The notes under the pieces: generated by a model | What the model was told of the DNA's origin: nothing | What the model saw: only the letters and a program-made list of their open reading frames with translations | The model's database searches: none | Translations under genes and position numbers: made by a program | Part shown: positions 23,906 to 38,408 of the stretch, piece after piece | How positions within the stretch are numbered: position 1 is the stretch's first letter | Layout of the letters: every line of letters starts with the position of its first letter | Assembly: GCF_009392895.1 (NCBI RefSeq) | Contig: NZ_CP045488.1 | Span: forward strand, 1,240,001-1,304,000 | DNA length: 64,000 bases | Direction of reading: 5' to 3' | Origin: Natronorubrum aibiense | Lineage (GTDB): Archaea > Halobacteriota > Halobacteria > Halobacteriales > Natrialbaceae

Positions 23906-25684
23906 TCAGAGGATCGTCCCGTGTTTCTTGTCCGGCAGGTCCTTCTCGACGGTCTCGTAGAACGCAAAGCGGGCCTCGAGTTCCTCTCGAAGCGAACTCG
24001 GCGGGACGATCTCGTCGATGACGACCTCGCTGGCCATCCGGTGGACGTTGATATCCTCGCGGTACTCCTCGCGCAGTTGCTGTTCTTTTTCGGCGCGTTC
24101 GTCCGGGTCGTCGATCGCCGCCAGCTTGTTCGCGTAGACGGCGTTGATCGCCGCTTCGGGCCCCATAATGGCGATCTCGCCGCTCGGCAGGCCGATAACA
24201 CTCTCCGGATCGTAAGCCGGCCCCGACATGGCGTAGATCCCTGCGCCGTAGGCCTTCCGGACGACGACGGACTGTTTGGGAACCGTCGCCGAGGACGTCG
24301 CGTAGATCATCTTCTTGCCCTGCTCTAAGATGCCGTCTTTCTCGACCTGTGAGCCGGCCATGAAGCCGGGGGTGTCACACAGATAGAGCAGTGGGATGTC
24401 GTAGGCATCGCAGGTCCAGATGAACTCCGCGGCCTTCTCGGCGGCGTCGGGGAAGATCGCACCGGCCCGCTGGGCGGGCTGGTTGGCGACGATCCCGATC
24501 GGGCGGCCGTCGATCCGGGCGAAGGCCGTGATGATCTCCGGGCCGTACTCCGGGCGGAGCTCGAGGACGGAGCCAGCGTCGACGACGCGCTCGATGACGT
24601 CGTTCATGTCGTAGCCACGGTTCGGTTCCTGTGGGACGACGGAATCGATCCCCTCAGGTGGCCGTGCGGGAGCCGTCCCCTCCGTCTGCGGTGGCTCCTC
24701 GTCTGCGTTGTCCGGCAGGTAGCCGATAAGTTTCGCGACGAGTTCGCGGGCGTGTTCTTCGTCCTCGGCGATCAGGTCCGCGCTGCCGGAGTGGCGGGCG
24801 TGGATGTCCGGACCACCGAGATCCTGCAGGTCGATTTCCTCGCCGGTGACCATCTCGACCATCCGCGGGGAGGCGATCGCCATCGCCGAGACGTCCCGGA
24901 CCATGATCGTGAAGTCGGCGAACACCGGTGTGTAGGCGGCCCCGGCGATACAGGGGCCGTAGAGCACGCAGATCTGTGGCACGCGGCCCGACAGCATCGA
25001 GTGGTTGTAGTAGTACTTCCCGATACCCTCGCGGTTCGCGAAAAAGCCCGACTGCTGGTCGATCCGGCCGCCCGAGGAGTCCATCAGGTACAGCACCGGG
25101 CGCCCAGTCTTCAGCGCGCGCTGTTGCATCCGGAGGAACTTCTCGACACCTTTCTCGGCCATCGACCCCGCCTTGACGGTGAAGTCGTTGGCCATGAAAT
25201 GTAGGTCCCGGCCCTCGAACTCGGCCGCGCCGGTGATGAGTCCGTCCGCGGGCAGTCGATCGTCCGAATCCGGATCGCTGTTCTGGCCGCTCGGATGCCA
25301 CGCGTCGAAGTTGGCAAACTTGCCGTCTTCGAACGAGAGGCCGTCCTCGCCGAACCAGAGCTCGAGCCGATCGCGGACGAACAGCTTCCCCTGATCGGAG
25401 AGGCGCTCGCGGTACTTCTCGGGGCCGCCCTCGAGGATGTCGTCAATCTCGGCTTGCAGCGTCTCCTCTCGAGCGGTCGGCTCGAGTGGCTCTGCGTTGC
25501 CGCCGTCGCCGGCAGCCGCGTCGGGTGTCGTCGCGTCAGCGCTCACCTCAGGCGAGGCACTCGCGAGGAGGTCCTCGCCCCGTTCGGCGTACAGCTCGAC
25601 GTCCTCGCCGAAGTGGGAGGCGAGTGCCTTCGCGATCGCCTGTGCTTCCTGCTCGGTTGCCGTCGTGTTGATTCTCAGTTCCAT
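23906..25684 (-). CDS. Acyl-CoA carboxylase, carboxyltransferase subunit with N-terminal extra domain
   Basis: This 592-residue biotin-dependent carboxyltransferase moves carboxyl from carboxybiotin to an acyl-CoA. The two crotonase-like halves are visible: YLMDSSGGRIDQQ and GPCIAGAAYTPVFADF in the first, LCDTPGFMAGSQVEKDG and SGPAYDPESVIGLPSGEIA in the second. Residues 1-40 (MELRINTTATEQEAQAIAKA...) resemble the small epsilon-like subunit seen as a separate protein in some haloarchaeal and actinobacterial carboxylases, joined by an Ala/Asp-rich linker (45-80). It starts two bases after the biotin carboxylase stop. The substrate (propionyl-CoA, methylcrotonyl-CoA or other) is not settled by sequence. 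Confidence 0.88.
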   Translation of the reverse strand: MELRINTTATEQEAQAIAKALASHFGEDVELYAERGEDLLASASPEVSADATTPDAAAGDGGNAEPLEPTAREETLQAEIDDILEGGPEKYRERLSDQGKLFVRDRLELWFGEDGLSFEDGKFANFDAWHPSGQNSDPDSDDRLPADGLITGAAEFEGRDLHFMANDFTVKAGSMAEKGVEKFLRMQQRALKTGRPVLYLMDSSGGRIDQQSGFFANREGIGKYYYNHSMLSGRVPQICVLYGPCIAGAAYTPVFADFTIMVRDVSAMAIASPRMVEMVTGEEIDLQDLGGPDIHARHSGSADLIAEDEEHARELVAKLIGYLPDNADEEPPQTEGTAPARPPEGIDSVVPQEPNRGYDMNDVIERVVDAGSVLELRPEYGPEIITAFARIDGRPIGIVANQPAQRAGAIFPDAAEKAAEFIWTCDAYDIPLLYLCDTPGFMAGSQVEKDGILEQGKKMIYATSSATVPKQSVVVRKAYGAGIYAMSGPAYDPESVIGLPSGEIAIMGPEAAINAVYANKLAAIDDPDERAEKEQQLREEYREDINVHRMASEVVIDEIVPPSSLREELEARFAFYETVEKDLPDKKHGTIL

Positions 25685-25686
25685 CG

Positions 25687-27474
25687 TTACTCTAAGACGA
25701 CCAGTGGGTCGCCCATATCAACTGTGTCACCGTCCGTCACGGGAACGTCCGCGACGGTGCCGGCGGCCGGTGCCACCACGTCGTTTTCCATCTTCATCGC
25801 CTCGAGGACGCAGACCACCTCGCCTTGCGCGATCTGGTCGCCCGGACTGACGCTCACGGAGAGCACGGTGCCCTGCATCTCAGCCGTGATCGCGTCGCTT
25901 GCAGTGACTTGCCCGGCACCAGCGCTGCCGGCGCTCGAGGCCGTCGACCCCGTCGCGGAGCCGCTCGTGTCGGCCCCGTTGTTGCTGCTGACTGCGCGTG
26001 GCATCTCTCCGGTGACGGCGACGTCGAAGCGCCGACCATCGACCTCGACGACGAGGTCGTCCGTTGCAGCGCTGCCGGTCGCACTGTCGTCGTCGACGGC
26101 TGTACTCCAGCGTTCGACGGCGGCCGCGAGGTCGTCGTCGCTGACCGTCTCGTCGAGGTAGTTCGTCGTGTGTGCGCCCGTGCGGAACGTCTCGTCGTCG
26201 AGCATCAGTCGGTGGAACGGAATCGTCGTCTCGACGCCGACGTCGAAGTGGGACAGTGCTCGTCGGGAGCGCTCGAGACAGCGTGCTCGCGTCGGCGCGC
26301 GGACGATCAGCTTCGCGATCATCGAGTCGTAGTCGCCGGCGATCACGTCGCCTTTCTCGATGGCGTCGTCGATCCGGACGCCGAGGCCGCCCGGCGGGTC
26401 GTAGGTCGAAAGCGTCCCCGGCGTCGGCGCGAACCCGTTTGCGGGGTTCTCGGCGTTGATTCGGAACTCCATCGCGTGGCCGTCGATCTCGATGTCGTCT
26501 TGCGTGTACGGGAGTTCTTTGCCGGCCGCGATGCGGAGCTGTTCGCGGACGATGTCGATGCCCGTTACCTCTTCGCTGACGGTGTGTTCGACCTGAATCC
26601 GGGTGTTGACCTCCATGAAGTAGAACTCCCCATCTTCGACGAGGAACTCGACGGTGCCCGCGTTCGTATAGTCGGCTTCGCGGACGCCCCGACGGGCGGC
26701 GTTGCCGATCGCCTCACGAAGCCCCGAGTCGAGCGCCGTGCTCGGCGCTTCTTCGATGACCTTCTGGTGGCGACGCTGGAGCGAACAGTCCCGCTCGCCC
26801 AGATGCAGTGCCGTCCCGTGGTGGTCGGCGAGGATCTGGACCTCGACGTGTTTGGGATCCTCGAGGTACTTCTCCACATACACCGAGTCGTTGTCGAAGT
26901 AGGCCTCGCCTTCGCGTTTGGCGCTCTCGAAGGCGTCGTCGGCTTCGTCTTCGCTGCGGACGATCTTCATGCCGCGGCCGCCACCGCCGCCTTCGGCTTT
27001 GATGGCGATCGGGTAGCCGAACTCCGCGCCTAGCTCGCGCACCTCGGCGGCCGACTCGACCGGTTCGGTCGTCCCTGGCACGACCGGGACGTCGGCGGCT
27101 TGCATGATCCGGCGAGCGTTCGTCTTCTCGCCTAAGGCCGTCATGGCGTCGCTCGAGGGGCCGACCCAGGTGATCCCCTCTGCAGATTCGACCTGGCTGG
27201 CGAACTCGGCGTTTTCCGCGAGGAAGCCGTAGCCGGGATGGATCGCGTCGGCACCGGCACGGTTGGCGACCTCGATGATCGTCTCGCCGTCGAGATAGGA
27301 CTTGCTCGCCGGCGCGGGGCCGATGTTGTACGCTTCGTCGGCGTAGTCGACGTGGCCGGCGTCTCGGTCGGCGTCGCTGTAGACGGCGACCGTCTCGATG
27401 CCGAGTTCCTCGCAGGCGCTCATGACGCGGACGGCGATTTCGCCGCGGTTGGCGACCAGTAATTTCTCGAACAT
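25687..27474 (-). CDS. Biotin carboxylase fused to biotin carboxyl carrier domain
   Basis: This 595-residue alpha subunit uses ATP and bicarbonate to carboxylate biotin. The N-terminus [17 protein letters not shown] is the standard opening; the ATP-grasp region has [25 protein letters not shown] and [12 protein letters not shown]. The biotin carboxylase C-terminal domain runs to about 450. A Ser/Gly/Ala linker leads to the carrier domain, which ends with [17 protein letters not shown]; the lysine between the two methionines is the biotinylation site. The ATG at 27474 fits the family start. It is co-directional with the dehydrogenase and carboxyltransferase, each two bases away. Confidence 0.93.
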
Positions 27475-27476
27475 GA

Positions 27477-28643
27477 TCAGTAGGACTTGGGGAAGCCGAG
27501 CTGTTGGCCGATGTGGTTGTACGCCATCTGCTGGGAGACGGGCGCGAGTCGGGTGAGGTTGATCTCGCGCCACCAGCGTTCGACGTCGTACTCCGTAGCG
27601 TACCCCCAGCCGCCGAAGGCCTGCATCGAGTGTTTGACCGCCTCAATGCCGGCGTCGACGGCCGTCGCCTTCGCGACGTTGGTCTCGTAGCCACAGTCTT
27701 CGCCCTGATCGTAGAGCCAGGCGGCCTTCTCGCGCATGAGCGCGGCTGTCTCCATCTTCGCGTATGCTTCCGTGATCGGGAACGAGACGGCCTGGTGGGT
27801 GCCGATCGGTGCGCCGAAGATCTCGCGGTCGTTCGCGTACTCGATGGCTGCGTGCGAGGCGAGCTTGCCGATCCCGGTGCCGGCGGCCGCGAAGCCGATT
27901 CGCTCGGGATTGAGCATATCGACCAGTACCCACCAGCCGTCGCCTTCCTCTCCCAGCAAGTTCTCCTCGGGCACGCGGATGTTCTCGAAGAAGACCTCAC
28001 ACGACTTCGAGTAGTTCATCGCGTGTTTCGAGATCGGCGAGACGTCGATGTTCGGATCGTCCATGTCGACGACGAACAGGCTGATCCCGTCGGTGCCACG
28101 GTCGACGTCCTCGCGGGATGTCGTCCGCGTGACGAGGACCATGTTGTCGGCCCGATCCGCGAACGTGATCCACGCCTTCTTGCCGTTGAGGACGTACTCA
28201 TCACCGTCCTTTTCGGCTCGAGTGGCGACGTTGAGCGTGTTCGTCCCCGCCTCGGGTTCGGTGATCCCGATCGAGAAGTTGCGCGCGCCGGTCGCGATGT
28301 CAGGCAGGTAGCGTTCTTTCTGTTCTTCGGTGCCGTGCTCGCGGATGCCGACGGCGGCCATCCCGGCGGTCAACACCAGATACCACGTGCCGGCCATGCC
28401 ACAGCCCTCGGCACAGAGGGTTTCCATGGCTAGCCCCATCTCCTGCATTCCCATGCCGGCCCCGTCGTACTCCTCGGGAACGAGGAGGCCGTGGAAGCCA
28501 GCGTCGCCGAGTTCGTTCCAGAATTCCGTGGAGAACTCGCCGTTTTCTTCCTTCTCGCGCCAGTGTTCCGGTCCGTACTGCTCGGCAATCTCCGCCGCTG
28601 TCTGGCGGATCATCGACCGTTCGTGTGTGTCTTCGAAGTTCAT
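27477..28643 (-). CDS. Acyl-CoA dehydrogenase
   Basis: This FAD enzyme of 388 residues oxidises an acyl-CoA to the 2-enoyl-CoA. Family motifs are [14 protein letters not shown]-like ([13 protein letters not shown]), a [14 protein letters not shown] segment, [26 protein letters not shown], and the C-terminal [20 protein letters not shown], which is the ACAD signature 2. I start it at 28643 ([21 protein letters not shown]); upstream in-frame ATGs at 28676 and 28696 are less typical. It is followed two bases later by the biotin carboxylase gene, an order like that of leucine/isovalerate (liu) operons. Substrate chain length is inferred only from context. Confidence 0.9.
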
Positions 28644-28732
28644 CGGTGGATTCGTATCGTCTCGCGTCCGGGACATCCCGGATTGCTGCTGTCGCATTGT
28701 TCGATCGCTGTACTCGAGGTGTTCGGACCTGA

Positions 28733-30415
28733 TCAGGCCGCCTCGGCTTCCTCTTCGACCTCGTCTTGGAGTTCCGTCCGGCGGATCTTCCCGGTGACCG
28801 TCTTCGGCAGTTCCTCGCGGAACTCGATCTCGCGGGGGTACTCGTGGGCTGAGAGTTCGTCTCGGACGTGGGCTTTGATCTCCTCTTTGAGGCCCTCGGA
28901 GGTCGCCGTCCCCTCGCTCGGCACGATGTAGGCTTTTACGATGTTGCCCCGTTCGCGGTGGGGTTTCGGGACGACGGCGGCCTCGGCGACGGCCTCGTGC
29001 TCGCCCAGCGAGCTTTCGACCTCGAAGGGGCCGATCCGGTAGCCCGACGAGAGGATGACGTCGTCGGCCCGCCCTTCGAACCAGAAGTACCCGTCCTCGT
29101 CCTTGTGTGCGAGGTCGCCGGAGAGATACCACTCACCAGCAGGACCGTCGACGAAGCACTCGGCGGTCTTTTCGGGTTTCTGCCAGTACTCCGCGAAGAA
29201 GCAGGGGTAGTCCCCGCGCTGGGCGATTTCGCCCGTCTGACCAGGCTCGAGCACTTCGCCCGTCTCCGGGTCGACGATGTCGGCCTCGATGCCGGGCAGC
29301 GGCTTGCCCATCGAGCCCGGACGCACATCCATCGTCGGGTAGTTGTTGATGATCATGTTACCCGTCTCGGTCTGGCCGTAGGTGTCGTGGATCGTCACGC
29401 CGAGGGTCTCCTCGCCCCACTCGACGACGCCCGCCGAGAGCGGTTCGCCGATCGATAAGGCGTGACGCAGGTCGAGCGAGACGTCCTCGAGGACCTCCTC
29501 GTGTTCACGCAGCATCCGGTAGGCCGTCGGGACCGAGAACAGGACCGTGATGGGGAACTCATCGAGCAGGTCGGCCCACGTTTCGGGATCGAACTCGCCT
29601 TCGTAGGTAAACAACGCGGTGCCCCAGAACCAGGCCCCGAGCGTGTTGATCGGGCCGGTCAGCCAGCCCAGGTCGCCGGTCGACCAGTAGCAGTCGCCCT
29701 CCTGCAGGTCGACAGCGTACTTCTGGGTGGCGGCGACGCCGGTGACCCACCGGTGTTTGTGGCGAACGCCTTTCGCCAGCCCGGTCGTCCCGCTGGTGTA
29801 GTAGAGTAAGGCGTCGTCCTCGCCGCCCGTCGCTGCCGGCTCGTACTCCCGGCTCGCATCTTCCATCTCGCTGTGGTAGCTTGCGTCGCCGCGACGGAGT
29901 CCCGTCCCGTCGTCGCTGACGACGATGACGTGTTCGACCGAAGGGGCGTCCTCGAGGGCTTCTTCGACGGTGTCGCGGTTGTCGGCGGTAGTGACGATCG
30001 CTTTCGCATCGCAGTCGGCGAGACGATAGGAGATGCCGTCGGGGCCGAAGCGCTCGTTGATGCCGCCGAAGACGGCCCCGCGTTTGAGCGTCCCAACCAG
30101 CGCGACGTAGTGTTCGGGGATCCGCGGCATGTACGAGAAGACTCGGTCCCCTTGCTCGATGCCAAGGTCCTCGAGGACGTTCGCGAACTGGCTCGTCTGG
30201 TTGGCCAGTTCCCAGAACGTCAGCGTCGTCAACTCGCCGTCCTCGCTCACCTGATAGAGGGCGACTTTCTCCTTGTTCTCGGCGTGGCGATCACAGACCT
30301 CGTGGGCGATATTCAGCTCGTTCGGTGCGTCCCAGTCGGCTGCATCGTAGAGGTCGTCCCAGCTAAACTCCTCGCGAACCTGCTCGTACTCCGGAAGATT
30401 GTGGCTCGATGGCAT
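28733..30415 (-). CDS. AMP-forming acyl-CoA synthetase
   Basis: This 560-residue ANL-superfamily ligase activates a carboxylic acid to its CoA thioester with ATP. The P-loop is LLYYTSGTTGLAKGVRHKH; A5 is DTYGQTETGN; A7 is WYLSGDLAHKDEDGYFWFEGRADD; A8 is GYRIGPFEVES; the late catalytic lysine lies in PKTVTGKIRRTEL. The pattern is that of medium-chain or acetyl-type synthetases in haloarchaea. It is the promoter-proximal gene of the operon, followed by a dehydrogenase, carboxylase and hydratases, so it supplies the acyl-CoA substrate. The exact acid is unknown; isovalerate or another branched short acid would fit. Confidence 0.92.
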   Translation of the reverse strand: MPSSHNLPEYEQVREEFSWDDLYDAADWDAPNELNIAHEVCDRHAENKEKVALYQVSEDGELTTLTFWELANQTSQFANVLEDLGIEQGDRVFSYMPRIPEHYVALVGTLKRGAVFGGINERFGPDGISYRLADCDAKAIVTTADNRDTVEEALEDAPSVEHVIVVSDDGTGLRRGDASYHSEMEDASREYEPAATGGEDDALLYYTSGTTGLAKGVRHKHRWVTGVAATQKYAVDLQEGDCYWSTGDLGWLTGPINTLGAWFWGTALFTYEGEFDPETWADLLDEFPITVLFSVPTAYRMLREHEEVLEDVSLDLRHALSIGEPLSAGVVEWGEETLGVTIHDTYGQTETGNMIINNYPTMDVRPGSMGKPLPGIEADIVDPETGEVLEPGQTGEIAQRGDYPCFFAEYWQKPEKTAECFVDGPAGEWYLSGDLAHKDEDGYFWFEGRADDVILSSGYRIGPFEVESSLGEHEAVAEAAVVPKPHRERGNIVKAYIVPSEGTATSEGLKEEIKAHVRDELSAHEYPREIEFREELPKTVTGKIRRTELQDEVEEEAEAA

Positions 30416-30810: not shown

Positions 30811-32202
30811 CTACAGCACGTCGTCCGGGTCGGCGTCGAATCCGAAGTCGGCCCACGACCCGCGGATGGCTGCTCGAAGCGTCGGCGGGTACGACTCGGC
30901 GAGCGAGACCCGTGGCGCGATGTACTCTTCGTCCCAGCGCGGGTCCCACGTCGCGTCGACGTAGAGGCGGGCCCCGGTGCCATCCCGGCTGTACGTCGGC
31001 AGGCGGGCGACTGGCGCGTCCGACCCGCTGAACAGCCAGTCTCGAGCGGGGTGGGCTTTGACCCAGATATCGCCGAGGACCTGCCCGAGGTCGCGCGGGC
31101 TGGCGTGTTCGTCGACGAGCACGACCGTATCGAAACAGTCGGCGAGGGAAAACAGGAAGTTCGACAGTTGCCACTCGAAGCCGGCATACAGGACCTCCGT
31201 CGAGACGATACAGATCCCGAGTCGGCCCGCTGCCGGCAACAGGAGCCACTCGACGGGCGAGACGCCCCAGTAGCTGTTGACCCGGTCGTAGAGCCGCGCC
31301 GCGAGCGTGAGTGCGGCAAGTTGTAAGTCATCGGCCAGCGGCACGCCCAGCGGCGTAAACGGAACGACGGCGTCGTCGCGAGCGAACACGCTCGAGACCT
31401 CGAGCGTCAGCGTCGTCGCGTCGACGAGGCGCTCCCAGAACGCCCGTTTCTCCGATCGGGTATCGGGCTGTGTGGCTGCCACGGTGGCCTCGAGGACGAC
31501 CTCGGAGGAACTCGGGACGACCCCGCCAGCGGTGGGGATCACCGGCACCGTCGAGCCGACGCCCCGGTCTTCGATCGGCGTCGACAGCCGGTCGGTGTTC
31601 GTCAGCAGGTGCGTCGCCGCGAGCGCTTCGGAGGGGACGCCGAGTGCGACGGTGACCGCATCGTCGTGGGTAAAGCGGTCCGTGATCGCTTCGGGAACGC
31701 GAGCGCGGATCGTATTTTGGTCGATAACCGTCCCGTGGATCGGCGTCCAGTACGTGCCGTCGTCGGTGCCCACCGAGAGCAGTCCGAGCGTCAGGTGAGG
31801 CCAGGTCTCGCCCGGCGGCGTCGGAAAGCCGAGGGCTCGGACGGTCCGATCGGTGGCCGTCGCCGCGCGTTCGACGTAGGTGACGTCGCGTTCGTCGACC
31901 CGGTCGCCGAGGTCGGTGATCGTCTCGAGGACGTCGACGTACGCGGCGTCGCGGTCGACACCGAGGCCGATGCCGAGCCGTGTCCAGGGGTATTGCACCT
32001 GACGGCGCAGTTGGTCGACACCGCCGTAGACGCCGCTGACGAGGTCGACGCGGTCGTCAGCCGTCCCCAATCGCACTGTGGGGCCGTCGGCCCGAAGCGC
32101 CTCGCTGGCGATGACCTGGAGCGACGGCGAGTCGGGTCGCTCGAGCGAACAGCAGTCGTCGGTCTTCCGCAAGAACTCGAGGTGGGTTCGAAACGCCGTC
32201 AT
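30811..32202 (-). CDS. UbiD-like protein lacking the catalytic loop (partner of catalytic UbiD)
   Basis: This 463-residue protein lines up in broad outline with the UbiD decarboxylase encoded just upstream, although identity is low. The segment SSSEVVLEATVAA (231-243) corresponds to the UbiD strand ASAEIVIEGHVLP, and FLFSLADCFDTVVLVDEHASP to the FIFTTWGMLHIDFFVFVDSD region. The UbiD catalytic stretch E-G-P-F-G-x-Y is absent: the chain goes directly into a helical KRAFWERLVDA. It therefore looks like a non-catalytic subunit. The ATG at 32202 overlaps the stop of the UbiD gene (ATGA), so it is translated together with it. The shorter start is chosen because the longer frame gives an arginine-rich shadow. 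Confidence 0.72.
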   Translation of the reverse strand: MTAFRTHLEFLRKTDDCCSLERPDSPSLQVIASEALRADGPTVRLGTADDRVDLVSGVYGGVDQLRRQVQYPWTRLGIGLGVDRDAAYVDVLETITDLGDRVDERDVTYVERAATATDRTVRALGFPTPPGETWPHLTLGLLSVGTDDGTYWTPIHGTVIDQNTIRARVPEAITDRFTHDDAVTVALGVPSEALAATHLLTNTDRLSTPIEDRGVGSTVPVIPTAGGVVPSSSEVVLEATVAATQPDTRSEKRAFWERLVDATTLTLEVSSVFARDDAVVPFTPLGVPLADDLQLAALTLAARLYDRVNSYWGVSPVEWLLLPAAGRLGICIVSTEVLYAGFEWQLSNFLFSLADCFDTVVLVDEHASPRDLGQVLGDIWVKAHPARDWLFSGSDAPVARLPTYSRDGTGARLYVDATWDPRWDEEYIAPRVSLAESYPPTLRAAIRGSWADFGFDADPDDVL

Positions 32203-33707
32203 TGGTTCGACCCGATCGTGTGTGATGGTTCGAACGCCGATTCGGGAATCCCGGCTTGGCTGAGCAGGTCCCGGGCCTGCTCGCGGGCGTCCCGGTCGCC
32301 GATCGATTGGGCCGGCCGTGTGCCGTCGGCACAGGCGTCGATGTACGCTTTTGCCGTCTTCGTCTTCGAGGTACCGACGGCTGCACTGCCCTTCTCGTCG
32401 GGCGTCTGGTAGATGTTCAGTGGCACCTTCGGCATGCGCTCGACGCCGAACTGGTGGAAGTCCGTGTCGGGATCGGCGTGGAGAGCGATCGCTTCGACGA
32501 CCGCACGGGGGTTCAGCGGGTTGACGTCGCTGTCGACGAAGACGAAAAAGTCGATGTGGAGCATCCCCCATGTCGTGAAGATGAAGTTGGCGAGTTCGTG
32601 CAGCGAGCCGGGGTACGGCCGGTCGGTCGCGATCACCCAGACCGTCCGAGAGCTAAACGGCCACGGGACGGCCAGCTCGACGTCGAAGCCGGCCGCTCGC
32701 AATCCGAGCGTCGCGTCCGGTCCGCCGGCCGCGACCGCGAACGTGCTCGTGGAGTTTTCCCCGTAGCCGACGCCGCTGCCTTCGACGCAGAAGGGAACGT
32801 AGGGCCGCTCACGGTGAGTGATTGCGTCGACCTCGAGTACCGGCATCGAGCGCCGGGGACCGTTCATGTAACCGAAATAGTCGCCGAACGGGCCCTCGTC
32901 CAGACGCTCGCCCGGCAAGACGTGCCCCTCAATGACGATCTCGGCCGACGCGGGGACGCGAAGCTCGTTCGTCTCGCAGTCGACGAGGTCGACGGGCGAC
33001 TCGCGGAGGCCGCCCGCGAAGGAGACCTCGCTTTTGCCGACGGGGATCCACACCTCAGCAGTGGATTCGATTGCCGGCCCGGCACCGAGCGTCAGGGCAA
33101 CGGGCATCGGCTCGTCGTCGCGTTCGTACTCGAAGTAGTAGCGGTTGGGGACCTGCTCGCCAGCCAGAAAGAGCAGGCTCGCCTGTGAGTCGTCGTGAAT
33201 CATCGCTCGATGGCGCGACCAACTCCCCCACTCGCTGTCGGAGTCGGGGGCGACGAGCGTCGCGAGCGTCGCGTATCGGCCGCCGTCGCCCTGATGAATG
33301 TACGGCCAGGGGAACTCGAGCAAACTCGCCTCCGAACCCGTCCGGACGACCTCCTTGCAGGGGGCCTCGCCGTCGGAGACGACCCGCGGCTCGATCGGTT
33401 CAGACAGCCGGTCGATCACGCCCTCGTAGTAGGCCGGACCGGAGTCGGTCGGCAGGTCGAACGCGCGGGCGAACCGCTGCCAGGGTCGGCGCTGGGGTCC
33501 GCGGTAGGGGTCGCCGACGAGCCGGGCGGCCGTCTCGAGGGACTGCGATTGGACCGTCTCGAAGATCGGAATCCGGTCGTCGGTCTCGTTTGCGAGCATC
33601 GTGATCGCGCTCGCCTCGAGATCCCACGAGACCTCGTCGGTGATTCGCGCGAGCGCGTCTTCGTCCGCGAGCGTGCCCAGAAACTCCCGAAATGATCCCA
33701 CAGCCAT
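32199..33707 (-). CDS. UbiD family (prFMN-dependent) decarboxylase
   Basis: This 502-residue enzyme belongs to the UbiD family, which uses prenylated FMN to decarboxylate or carboxylate unsaturated and aromatic acids. Residues 162-172 (SWSRHRAMIHD) match the prFMN-binding arginine region; E260 and E271 sit in the EIVIEGHVLPGERLDEGPFGDY stretch, corresponding to the catalytic Glu-Arg-Glu network and the conserved PFGxxxGY loop. The C-terminal third (TKTAKAYIDACADGTRPA) is the dimerisation region. The substrate is unknown. No prenyltransferase (UbiX) gene is present in the window, so prFMN must come from elsewhere. It is the middle gene of a three-gene operon. Confidence 0.9.
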   Translation of the reverse strand: MAVGSFREFLGTLADEDALARITDEVSWDLEASAITMLANETDDRIPIFETVQSQSLETAARLVGDPYRGPQRRPWQRFARAFDLPTDSGPAYYEGVIDRLSEPIEPRVVSDGEAPCKEVVRTGSEASLLEFPWPYIHQGDGGRYATLATLVAPDSDSEWGSWSRHRAMIHDDSQASLLFLAGEQVPNRYYFEYERDDEPMPVALTLGAGPAIESTAEVWIPVGKSEVSFAGGLRESPVDLVDCETNELRVPASAEIVIEGHVLPGERLDEGPFGDYFGYMNGPRRSMPVLEVDAITHRERPYVPFCVEGSGVGYGENSTSTFAVAAGGPDATLGLRAAGFDVELAVPWPFSSRTVWVIATDRPYPGSLHELANFIFTTWGMLHIDFFVFVDSDVNPLNPRAVVEAIALHADPDTDFHQFGVERMPKVPLNIYQTPDEKGSAAVGTSKTKTAKAYIDACADGTRPAQSIGDRDAREQARDLLSQAGIPESAFEPSHTIGSNQ

Positions 33708-33710
33708 CCG

Positions 33711-34193
33711 TTACTCGGTTTCGAGCGCCTCGCGCAGTGGATCGGATTCGTACGCGGCTTTACAGTCGGCGTAGGTCTCGAGCACGGACGGATGCTCGTC
33801 GGCGAGTCCGGCAAACAGCAGCGATCGGGCCGCCGCTGCCGTCGAGTCGTACCGGCCATCGTCGACGAGATACCGGAGCAACACGCACAGGTCGCTCGAG
33901 CGCGTGTTGACGACGTTCGAACGTTCCTGTTGGTCCTCGAGCAGCGTTTCGAGGCGCGTCTCGATGTCGTCGGTTTCGTCGACGAACTCGATGTACCACT
34001 GTTCTCTCGTCGTTTCGTGAGGGCCTTTGACGACCGACAGCGGTTCCGGCTGTTCGAGTTCCGTCGGATCTTTCGCGACTCGCGCACGCGGATGAAATAT
34101 CTGCTTCGTCTCGGCGTCGCGCACCTGTAGCACCGTTTCCGTGCCCTCGGCGTCAGGAAGGTGTTTTTCGGCGGTAATATACGTATTTGACAT
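33711..34193 (-). CDS. Small protein leading the UbiD operon, unknown function
   Basis: The 160-residue protein starts MSNTYITAEKHLPDAEGTE at 34193 and ends three bases before the UbiD start. The first half is beta-rich and polar (TVLQVRDAETKQIFHPRAR) with a HETTREQWYIEFVDETDDIE strand-helix. The second half is helical (SSDLCVLLRYLVDDGRYDSTAAAARSLLFAGLADEHPSVLETY) and looks loosely like a ribbon-helix-helix or small helical bundle. I recognise no family. Its tight coupling with the two UbiD-type proteins suggests a third subunit or a dedicated regulator. Confidence 0.65.
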   Translation of the reverse strand: MSNTYITAEKHLPDAEGTETVLQVRDAETKQIFHPRARVAKDPTELEQPEPLSVVKGPHETTREQWYIEFVDETDDIETRLETLLEDQQERSNVVNTRSSDLCVLLRYLVDDGRYDSTAAAARSLLFAGLADEHPSVLETYADCKAAYESDPLREALETE

Positions 34194-37061: not shown

Positions 37062-38408
37062 ATGGTCGCCTACAAGTCCAAACTGGTCGAACGGATCCAC
37101 CTGCCCTCGAGGGAACGACGCGAGCAGGCGCTCGAGGACGCCGGCTACAACGTCTTCAATCTCGCTGCCGAGGAGGTCTTCATCGATCTGCTAACCGACA
37201 GCGGCACGGGTGCGATGAGCGACGTGCAGTGGGCAGCGCTCGTCCGCGGCGACGAATCCTACGCCGGCTCGCGAAGCTTCGACGAACTCGAGTCGGCCGT
37301 CGAGGCGGTAATGGGAGTTTCAAACGTCGTGCCGACCCATCAGGGTCGTGGGGCCGAGAACGTCCTCTACGGCAGCCTGCTGTCGGACGGCGACGTCGTG
37401 CTCAACAACACCCACTTCGATACGACCCGCGCCCACGTCGCGAATCAGGGTGCCGAGCCGGTCGACTGCCCGGTCGAGTCGGCACACGACCCGACGGCGG
37501 ACGAGCCGTTCAAAGGGAACTTCTCGCTCGAGGCTGCCCGGGCGGTCGTCGACGAGGTAGGAGCGGAACACGTCCCGCTAGTGATTCAGACGATTACGAA
37601 CAACTCCGCGGCGGGCCAGCCGGTCAGCGTCGAGAACACACGCGACGTCGCAGCGTTTGCCGACGAGATCGACGCAACGTTCGTCATCGACGCCTGTCGG
37701 TTCGCCGAAAACGCCGCCTTCGTCGCTCGTCGCGAGGCCGAGTTCGCCGACGCCGAAATCGCTGCGATCGCCCGCGAGCAACTCGGCTACGCCGATGCGC
37801 TCGTAATGAGCGGCAAAAAGGACGGGCTGGTCAACGCCGGCGGCTTCGTCGCGACCGACGACAACGCGCTCTTCGAGCGCTGCAAGCAGCGAGCCATTCT
37901 CTACGAGGGGTTCCCCACCTACGGCGGGATGGCCGGCCGCGACGTCGCCGCGATGGCCGTCGGCCTCAGAGAAGCCGTCGAGGAGGCCTACGTCACGGAT
38001 CGCATCGAGCAGGTCCGTCGCCTCGCGACGATGCTCGAGGACGCCGGTGTGCCGATCTACACCCCGGCCGGCGGCCACGCGGTCTATCTCGACGCGGGAA
38101 CTGCCCTCTCCCATCTCCCACGCGAGCAGTTCCCGGGGCAGGCGCTGGTCTGTGCACTCTATCGGGAGGGTGGTGTCCGTGGCGTCGAACTCGGGAGCTT
38201 CGCGTTCCCCGATACCGATCGCCCGGAACTGGTTCGGCTCGCGATTCCGCGCCGGACCTACCACACCGAACACTTAGAGCACGTCGTCGAAACCGCTGCG
38301 GCCGTCCTCGAGGAGCCTGAGTCGATCCCCGGCCTCGAGCTCGTCTCCGAGCCCGAGATGCCCGAAATTCGGCACTTCACGGCCGAACTCGAGCCGATAT
38401 CGTCCTGA
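37062..38408 (+). CDS. tnaA: Tryptophanase / beta-eliminating lyase
   Basis: This 448-residue PLP enzyme cleaves tryptophan to indole, pyruvate and ammonia, or tyrosine to phenol. The N-terminal MVAYKSKLVERIHLPSRERREQAL and YNVFNLAAEEVFIDLLTDSGTGAMSD are typical of tryptophanase/tyrosine phenol-lyase; THQGRGAENVLY is the phosphate-binding area and the PLP lysine is in MSGKKDGLVNAGGF. The C-terminal RLAIPRRTYHTEHLEHV is also family-typical. Tryptophan specificity is inferred from overall resemblance; tyrosine phenol-lyase cannot be fully excluded. No permease is adjacent. Confidence 0.9.
   Translation: MVAYKSKLVERIHLPSRERREQALEDAGYNVFNLAAEEVFIDLLTDSGTGAMSDVQWAALVRGDESYAGSRSFDELESAVEAVMGVSNVVPTHQGRGAENVLYGSLLSDGDVVLNNTHFDTTRAHVANQGAEPVDCPVESAHDPTADEPFKGNFSLEAARAVVDEVGAEHVPLVIQTITNNSAAGQPVSVENTRDVAAFADEIDATFVIDACRFAENAAFVARREAEFADAEIAAIAREQLGYADALVMSGKKDGLVNAGGFVATDDNALFERCKQRAILYEGFPTYGGMAGRDVAAMAVGLREAVEEAYVTDRIEQVRRLATMLEDAGVPIYTPAGGHAVYLDAGTALSHLPREQFPGQALVCALYREGGVRGVELGSFAFPDTDRPELVRLAIPRRTYHTEHLEHVVETAAAVLEEPESIPGLELVSEPEMPEIRHFTAELEPISS

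Follow-up and report, generated by a model that had tools for sequence, protein, structure and literature searches.

A UbiD gene trio with a loop-less UbiD paralogue in haloarchaeal genomes that lack UbiX

Introduction

The UbiD enzymes studied so far depend on prenylated flavin mononucleotide (prFMN), a flavin cofactor that is made by UbiX. Phthaloyl-coenzyme A (CoA) decarboxylase, a UbiD-family enzyme with an aromatic acyl-CoA substrate, is paired with a UbiX-like protein. The closest solved structures to the two UbiD-type proteins treated here are those of HudA (PA0254) and fungal Fdc1, both studied as single UbiD proteins with prFMN from UbiX; in HudA, the binding of prFMN is mediated by Mn2+ and K+ (PMC7976604). 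Other described systems comprise additional proteins. Phenylphosphate carboxylase (PpcABCD) has two UbiD-type subunits and small proteins, the UbiD subunit of the vanillate decarboxylase VdcCD depends on a small protein reported to be an allosteric activator (PMC8379154), and LpdD, a prFMNH2-binding chaperone, is a small protein whose gene accompanies that of a UbiD and which takes part in loading the cofactor (PMC10865409). This work deals with a related locus in a 64,000-nucleotide stretch of the haloarchaeon Natronorubrum aibiense (contig NZ_CP045488.1), referred to as the window. On its minus strand, three translationally coupled genes (the trio) encode a small protein (s160), a UbiD, and a UbiD-like protein without the catalytic loop (c463).

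An initial annotation, made from the sequence alone, had described three overlapping or nearly abutting genes for a 160-residue protein of unknown type, a canonical UbiD, and a 463-residue UbiD-like protein lacking the loop, and had proposed a new heteromeric (de)carboxylase. The gene layout was confirmed on the minus strand: the stop of UbiD and the start of c463 share four nucleotides (ATGA), and the gap between s160 and UbiD is three nucleotides. The description of each protein was borne out as well. The most unusual feature of the trio, the strict absence of UbiX from the genomes that carry it, had not been foreseen. Current records hide the oddity of the locus, since RefSeq names both UbiD and c463 “UbiD family decarboxylase”; s160 appears as “ubiD operon protein” in one record.

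Conservation of the Trio and Absence of UbiX

The main sample consisted of 392 haloarchaeal genomes. Of these, 86 have c463 (one of them a weak fragment), 85 have s160, and 85, belonging to 25 genera, have all three genes. Every genome with s160 also has UbiD and c463 (85/85). The genes stand together in the same order in 62 of 64 extracted loci, and the exact 4-nucleotide overlap occurs at 37 of 43 UbiD–c463 junctions and at 23 of 43 s160–UbiD junctions. Pairwise distance matrices of the three proteins correlate with r values of 0.89–0.92, as high as none of 2000 permutations. Gene order, coupling, and co-occurrence agree with this distance correlation. The trio is a conserved unit, and the heteromeric proposal does not fail for want of conservation in other genomes. 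Both exceptions in gene order come from one genome (G213; loci L123, L124, and L175), which has two UbiD–c463 pairs: a weak, degenerate s160-like frame lies upstream of one pair and none at the other, and a separate intact s160 is located about 0.7–0.9 Mb away from them. This arrangement is a natural test for a possible action of s160 in trans.

UbiD was called by PF01977 and UbiX by TIGR00421 over its cut-off. UbiD is present in 117 of the 392 genomes and UbiX in 32. None of the 85 trio genomes has UbiX, whereas all 32 UbiD genomes without the trio do (Fisher test, 2e-29, not corrected for phylogeny); about seven genomes with both trio and UbiX would be expected by chance among the 392, and none was observed. 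A sample of the phylum gave the same picture: of 90 Halobacteriota genomes, 78 encode a UbiD; three of these carry the trio and are without UbiX, and the 75 others all have it, although G433 shows it only in neighboring fragments that score below the cut-off. UbiX also accompanies UbiD in each of the nine UbiD-containing genomes among 14 named controls, and in the genomes compared it is located no more than a few kilobases from the canonical UbiD. In the laboratory strain Haloferax volcanii, neither the UbiD nor the UbiX search gave a match. Since trio genomes never have UbiX and other UbiD genomes always do, the trio seems to represent a UbiD lineage that works without UbiX. The pairing of UbiD with UbiX is broken in all 85 trio genomes and intact in every other UbiD genome tested. 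A search of the open-access literature (subscription papers and preprints lay outside it) returned nothing on haloarchaeal UbiD or on UbiX-independent UbiD.

Other causes of this pattern were considered. A hidden UbiX is rejected by the TIGR00421 search over the 392 genomes and by a broader search with the Flavoprotein family PF02441, which covered 81 of the 85 trio genomes (that of the window and 80 others) and gave one significant match in each, in frames of 383–960 amino acids; this single match is CoaBC-like, and the frame lengths fit CoaBC. Incomplete assemblies are also rejected as the cause, because the trio genomes are 94–100% complete and 28 of the 85 consist of seven contigs or fewer. 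An effect of lineage alone is weakened by three genera (g2, g30, and g43) that contain both trio genomes and UbiX genomes. The testable question that follows is whether haloarchaea perform UbiD chemistry without prFMN or have a second route to prFMN. Either answer would change the understanding of UbiD (de)carboxylases, which are used in biocatalysis and in work on CO2 fixation.

Properties of the Three Proteins

The trio UbiD contains all three UbiD Pfam domains (Rift domain PF01977, E value 1.7e-61) and matches 40 UbiD sequences in the PDB, with HudA as the closest solved structure. As in HudA and Fdc1, the catalytic triad is complete: R167, E271 (in the motif EGPFGDY), and D276 are the equivalents of R173, E277, and E282 of Fdc1. 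Together with E227, which we take to be the counterpart of Fdc1 E233, these residues are invariant in an alignment of all 55 distinct trio UbiDs. The position of Fdc1 H191 is most likely that of the invariant Q185, in a stretch that aligns ambiguously. Fdc1 variants of the three triad residues are reported to be inactive or nearly so (PMC5818171); with its triad kept, the trio UbiD would therefore retain the residues needed for catalysis. The position of Fdc1 N168, a metal ligand, is occupied among the 55 trio UbiDs by Asp (34), Ser (10), Arg (7), His (2), and Asn (1), and by Asn in 15 of 16 aligned UbiDs from UbiX genomes. For the Mn2+/K+ site by which the phosphate of prFMN is bound, the trio UbiDs therefore show a retained E227, a variable N168 position, and probably Q185 in place of H191. 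Two conserved segments of the trio UbiD are unlike the UbiDs of UbiX genomes, namely a lineage-specific GYxENS insert (residues 314–319) and a near-invariant C-terminal segment (residues 419–458, QFGVExMPKVPLNIYQTPxEKG...GTSK).

According to profile comparison and structure prediction, c463 is a UbiD paralogue of full length in which the catalytic loop is missing. In Pfam, the protein of the window matches UbiD_C (2.7e-11) and shows no match to the Rift domain; of 43 relatives, every one has a UbiD_C match, 30 have one to UbiD_N, and 20 have one to the Rift domain. An hhalign comparison of the c463 and trio UbiD profiles extends over 444 columns (E 1.3e-22). The c463 profile also aligns with UbiDs of the PDB (E 3e-22), and the AlphaFold model of c463, poor at residues 377–433, matches HudA in Foldseek (E 4e-23). 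The predicted fold is thus that of UbiD, and the possibility that c463 is an unrelated protein is rejected by hhalign, by Pfam over the relatives, and by Foldseek. In the alignment, the EGPFG[D/E] loop with the positions of E277 and E282 is missing and the Arg position is partly kept (Arg or His), so that c463 lacks the Glu-Arg-Glu/Asp network conserved in the UbiD family. Residues of its own are invariant (W256, E257, W312, K382, and W419), and it evolves faster than the trio UbiD, with a mean column identity of 47% versus 61%. In a tree made by a quick method, all 43 c463 sequences and all 43 trio UbiDs fall behind their own fully supported branches; with 2.07 changes per column, the branch leading to c463 is too long for the tree to place its exact origin. 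The nearest named relatives of c463 include Natronorubrum species (81–88% identity). Two further c463 relatives, G185:C10:306482-307843 and G337:C3:165075-166454, have one in-frame TGA each and are possible pseudogenes or sequencing errors.

Searches of s160 against Pfam and NCBIfam gave zero matches. Its AlphaFold model (mean predicted local distance difference test score 84.5, predicted template-modelling score 0.51) shows a beta domain at the N terminus, then a linker helix, and further helices at residues 100–111, 118–133, and 135–149. The N-terminal part has an invariant GPHE motif and no match elsewhere. A C-terminal stretch of 71 columns matches the archaeal DNA-binding protein SegB (probability 0.97, E 0.34, template-modelling score 0.65 on the target), which we take to be of the ribbon-helix-helix type. 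The only matches of the s160 profile in the PDB are ParD antitoxins (E 0.7), and methanogen frames of 59 amino acids match the same C-terminal region (E 4e-4). The C-terminal half is therefore probably a ribbon-helix-helix domain, a resemblance that makes s160 possibly a regulator rather than a subunit. The idea of a UbiX-like protein finds no support, as no full-length fold match was obtained. Upstream of s160 there are TATA-like boxes and, by eye, no shared operator palindrome; no statistical motif search was run.

Comparison With Described Systems

HudA and Fdc1 share the fold and triad of the trio UbiD; nevertheless, they have no loop-less partner and receive their prFMN from UbiX, bound in HudA through the two metals. 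PpcABCD resembles the trio in having two UbiD-type subunits plus small proteins, and c463 matches the PpcABCD alpha model weakly (4.8e-7) as well as Azoarcus ppcA. However, the alpha and beta equivalog models gave only 28.8 and 20.3 bits for c463 and 141.5 and 88.1 bits for UbiD, against cut-offs of 564.6 and 468.95 bits. The vanillate decarboxylase differs in having a single UbiD subunit and a zinc-ribbon protein, VdcD, that s160 does not match; the trio UbiD scores 159.8 bits against a VdcC cut-off of 650 bits, and a UbiX-type VdcB is absent. No similarity between LpdD and s160 was found, and LpdD acts on prFMNH2 made by UbiX, which trio genomes should lack. Phthaloyl-CoA decarboxylase gives a weak profile match to the trio UbiD (5e-13) and is distant from it in sequence.

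Proposed Function and Alternative Explanations

The trio probably encodes a UbiD-type (de)carboxylase that is heteromeric and independent of UbiX. This is the best reading because c463 has the UbiD fold, lacks the catalytic loop, and has been passed on jointly with a canonical UbiD; the earlier proposal of a heteromeric enzyme is thus supported for these two proteins, while the place of s160 as a subunit is uncertain given its ribbon-helix-helix resemblance. UbiD and c463 would assemble into a hetero-oligomer, with UbiD as the catalyst and c463 standing in for one of the two halves of a normal UbiD dimer, where it would complete or gate the active site. The GYxENS insert and the C-terminal segment of UbiD may be the interface with c463 or may form a new pocket. 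The substrate would come from a pathway of acid-CoA catabolism and be either an aromatic or unsaturated acid or the corresponding CoA thioester, and the cofactor would be other than UbiX-made prFMN. A more specific proposal, to which we give somewhat less than an even chance, is that this UbiD branch dropped UbiX-made prFMN and that c463, alone or together with s160, provides the cofactor function or substitutes for it, the result being another cofactor, none at all, or prFMN from a second, unrelated flavin prenyltransferase. Between an altered or missing cofactor and prFMN of another source, we lean slightly to the former, because the metal-ligand position N168 has drifted and the triad has not.

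Several observations weigh against this interpretation. The intact triad is a requirement of prFMN chemistry and speaks against a change of cofactor. The drift at the N168 position proves little, since in the alignment HudA has Ser there and yet binds Mn2+; for this reason it is not accepted as proof of prFMN loss. UbiD and c463 may each form homodimers, and the correlation of their distances still contains shared species history. The trio UbiD could be an ordinary prFMN-dependent enzyme with an unusual partner, its prFMN coming from uptake or from a non-homologous prenyltransferase, encoded elsewhere or by a member of the trio. The invariance of R167, E271, D276, and E227 and the near inactivity of the Fdc1 triad variants argue for it; nonetheless, the genes beside the trio include no candidate prenyltransferase common to both of its clades, and all other UbiD genomes tested use UbiX. 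We judge this explanation unlikely, though far from negligible. Less probable still is that UbiD and c463 work separately, as distinct enzymes or homodimers encoded in one operon, and that c463 has a different function. The invariant residues and faster evolution of c463 would suit such an arrangement, in contrast to the constant pairing, overlapping genes, and correlated divergence of the two proteins and to the absence of the catalytic loop from c463.

s160 has about an even chance of standing outside the enzyme and regulating transcription of the operon as a ribbon-helix-helix protein whose N-terminal domain senses a ligand; an accessory subunit is about equally likely. The SegB-like C-terminal fold, the ParD and methanogen matches, and the free copy of s160 away from UbiD in one genome favor the regulator; on the other hand, each of the three matches is insignificant alone, upstream regions share no visible palindrome, and retention in 85 of 85 genomes with coupling to UbiD is more usual for subunits. 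A more radical option is that the trio is no longer a decarboxylase and uses the UbiD scaffold for a new reaction or a regulatory role. The absence of UbiX and the two lineage-specific UbiD segments are compatible with this idea, but conservation of the triad in all 55 sequences over wide divergence and the adjoining genes of acid-CoA catabolism make it quite improbable.

Gene Neighborhood and Pathway Context

The trio loci fall into two clades with different surroundings. In clade A, which includes the window (Table 1), the trio is followed by genes for an acyl-CoA ligase forming adenosine monophosphate (AMP), an acyl-CoA dehydrogenase, a biotin carboxylase, and a carboxyltransferase. The ligase gene starts 395 nucleotides downstream of c463 in the window and is found at this place throughout the clade A loci as well as in two named plasmids of this clade, which have an additional MaoC hydratase. 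In Haloarcula sinaiiensis, a paa cluster lies within about 5 kb of the clade A operon.

Table 1. Genes of the trio and its downstream neighbors in the window
Feature	Position	Strand	Remarks
s160	33711-34193	-	160 amino acids; regulator or accessory subunit
UbiD, putative catalytic subunit	32199-33707	-	502 amino acids; R167, E271, D276, E227 intact
c463	30811-32202	-	463 amino acids; UbiD paralogue without catalytic loop; putative partner subunit
AMP-forming acyl-CoA ligase	28733-30415	-	560 amino acids; NCBIfam acetate/acyl-CoA ligase families, best 8e-179, below curated cut-off
Acyl-CoA dehydrogenase	27477-28682	-	NCBIfam acyl-CoA dehydrogenase families, best 1.4e-71; conserved position
Biotin carboxylase with biotin carrier domain	25687-27474	-	NCBIfam best 8e-193; PRK08591 over cut-off
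Acyl-CoA carboxyltransferase	23906-25684	-	592 amino acids; mmdA/carboxyltransferase family 2.4e-126, below cut-off; conserved position

In clade B, the trio is followed by a hydrolase of the metallo-beta-lactamase fold, and nearby genes encode PaaA/PaaC/PaaD-type epoxidase subunits, a 2Fe-2S ferredoxin, a benzoate-CoA ligase family protein (384.9 bits, over the cut-off), enoyl-CoA hydratases, MaoC, a thiolase, and an aldehyde dehydrogenase. Some clade B loci add a formate dehydrogenase, CoA-transferases, and an importer of the ATP-binding cassette type. These neighbors (acyl/aryl-CoA ligases, acyl-CoA dehydrogenases, biotin-dependent carboxylase, and Paa-type epoxidases) point to a place of the trio in the catabolism of acids via CoA thioesters; the acids are probably aromatic or unsaturated.

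In several genomes (loci L182 on pHTUR01, L045, L121, and L126), the clade B trio adjoins genes for the alpha subunit of a formate dehydrogenase and for a NuoF-like protein. Cleavage of the benzoyl-CoA epoxide ring releases formate, and a formate dehydrogenase near the trio would thus fit a benzoate-type pathway. Elsewhere in the window, a 448-amino-acid frame on the plus strand (37062-38408), by eye similar to enzymes of the tryptophanase/tyrosine phenol-lyase type, lies near an aspartate-kinase-like gene.

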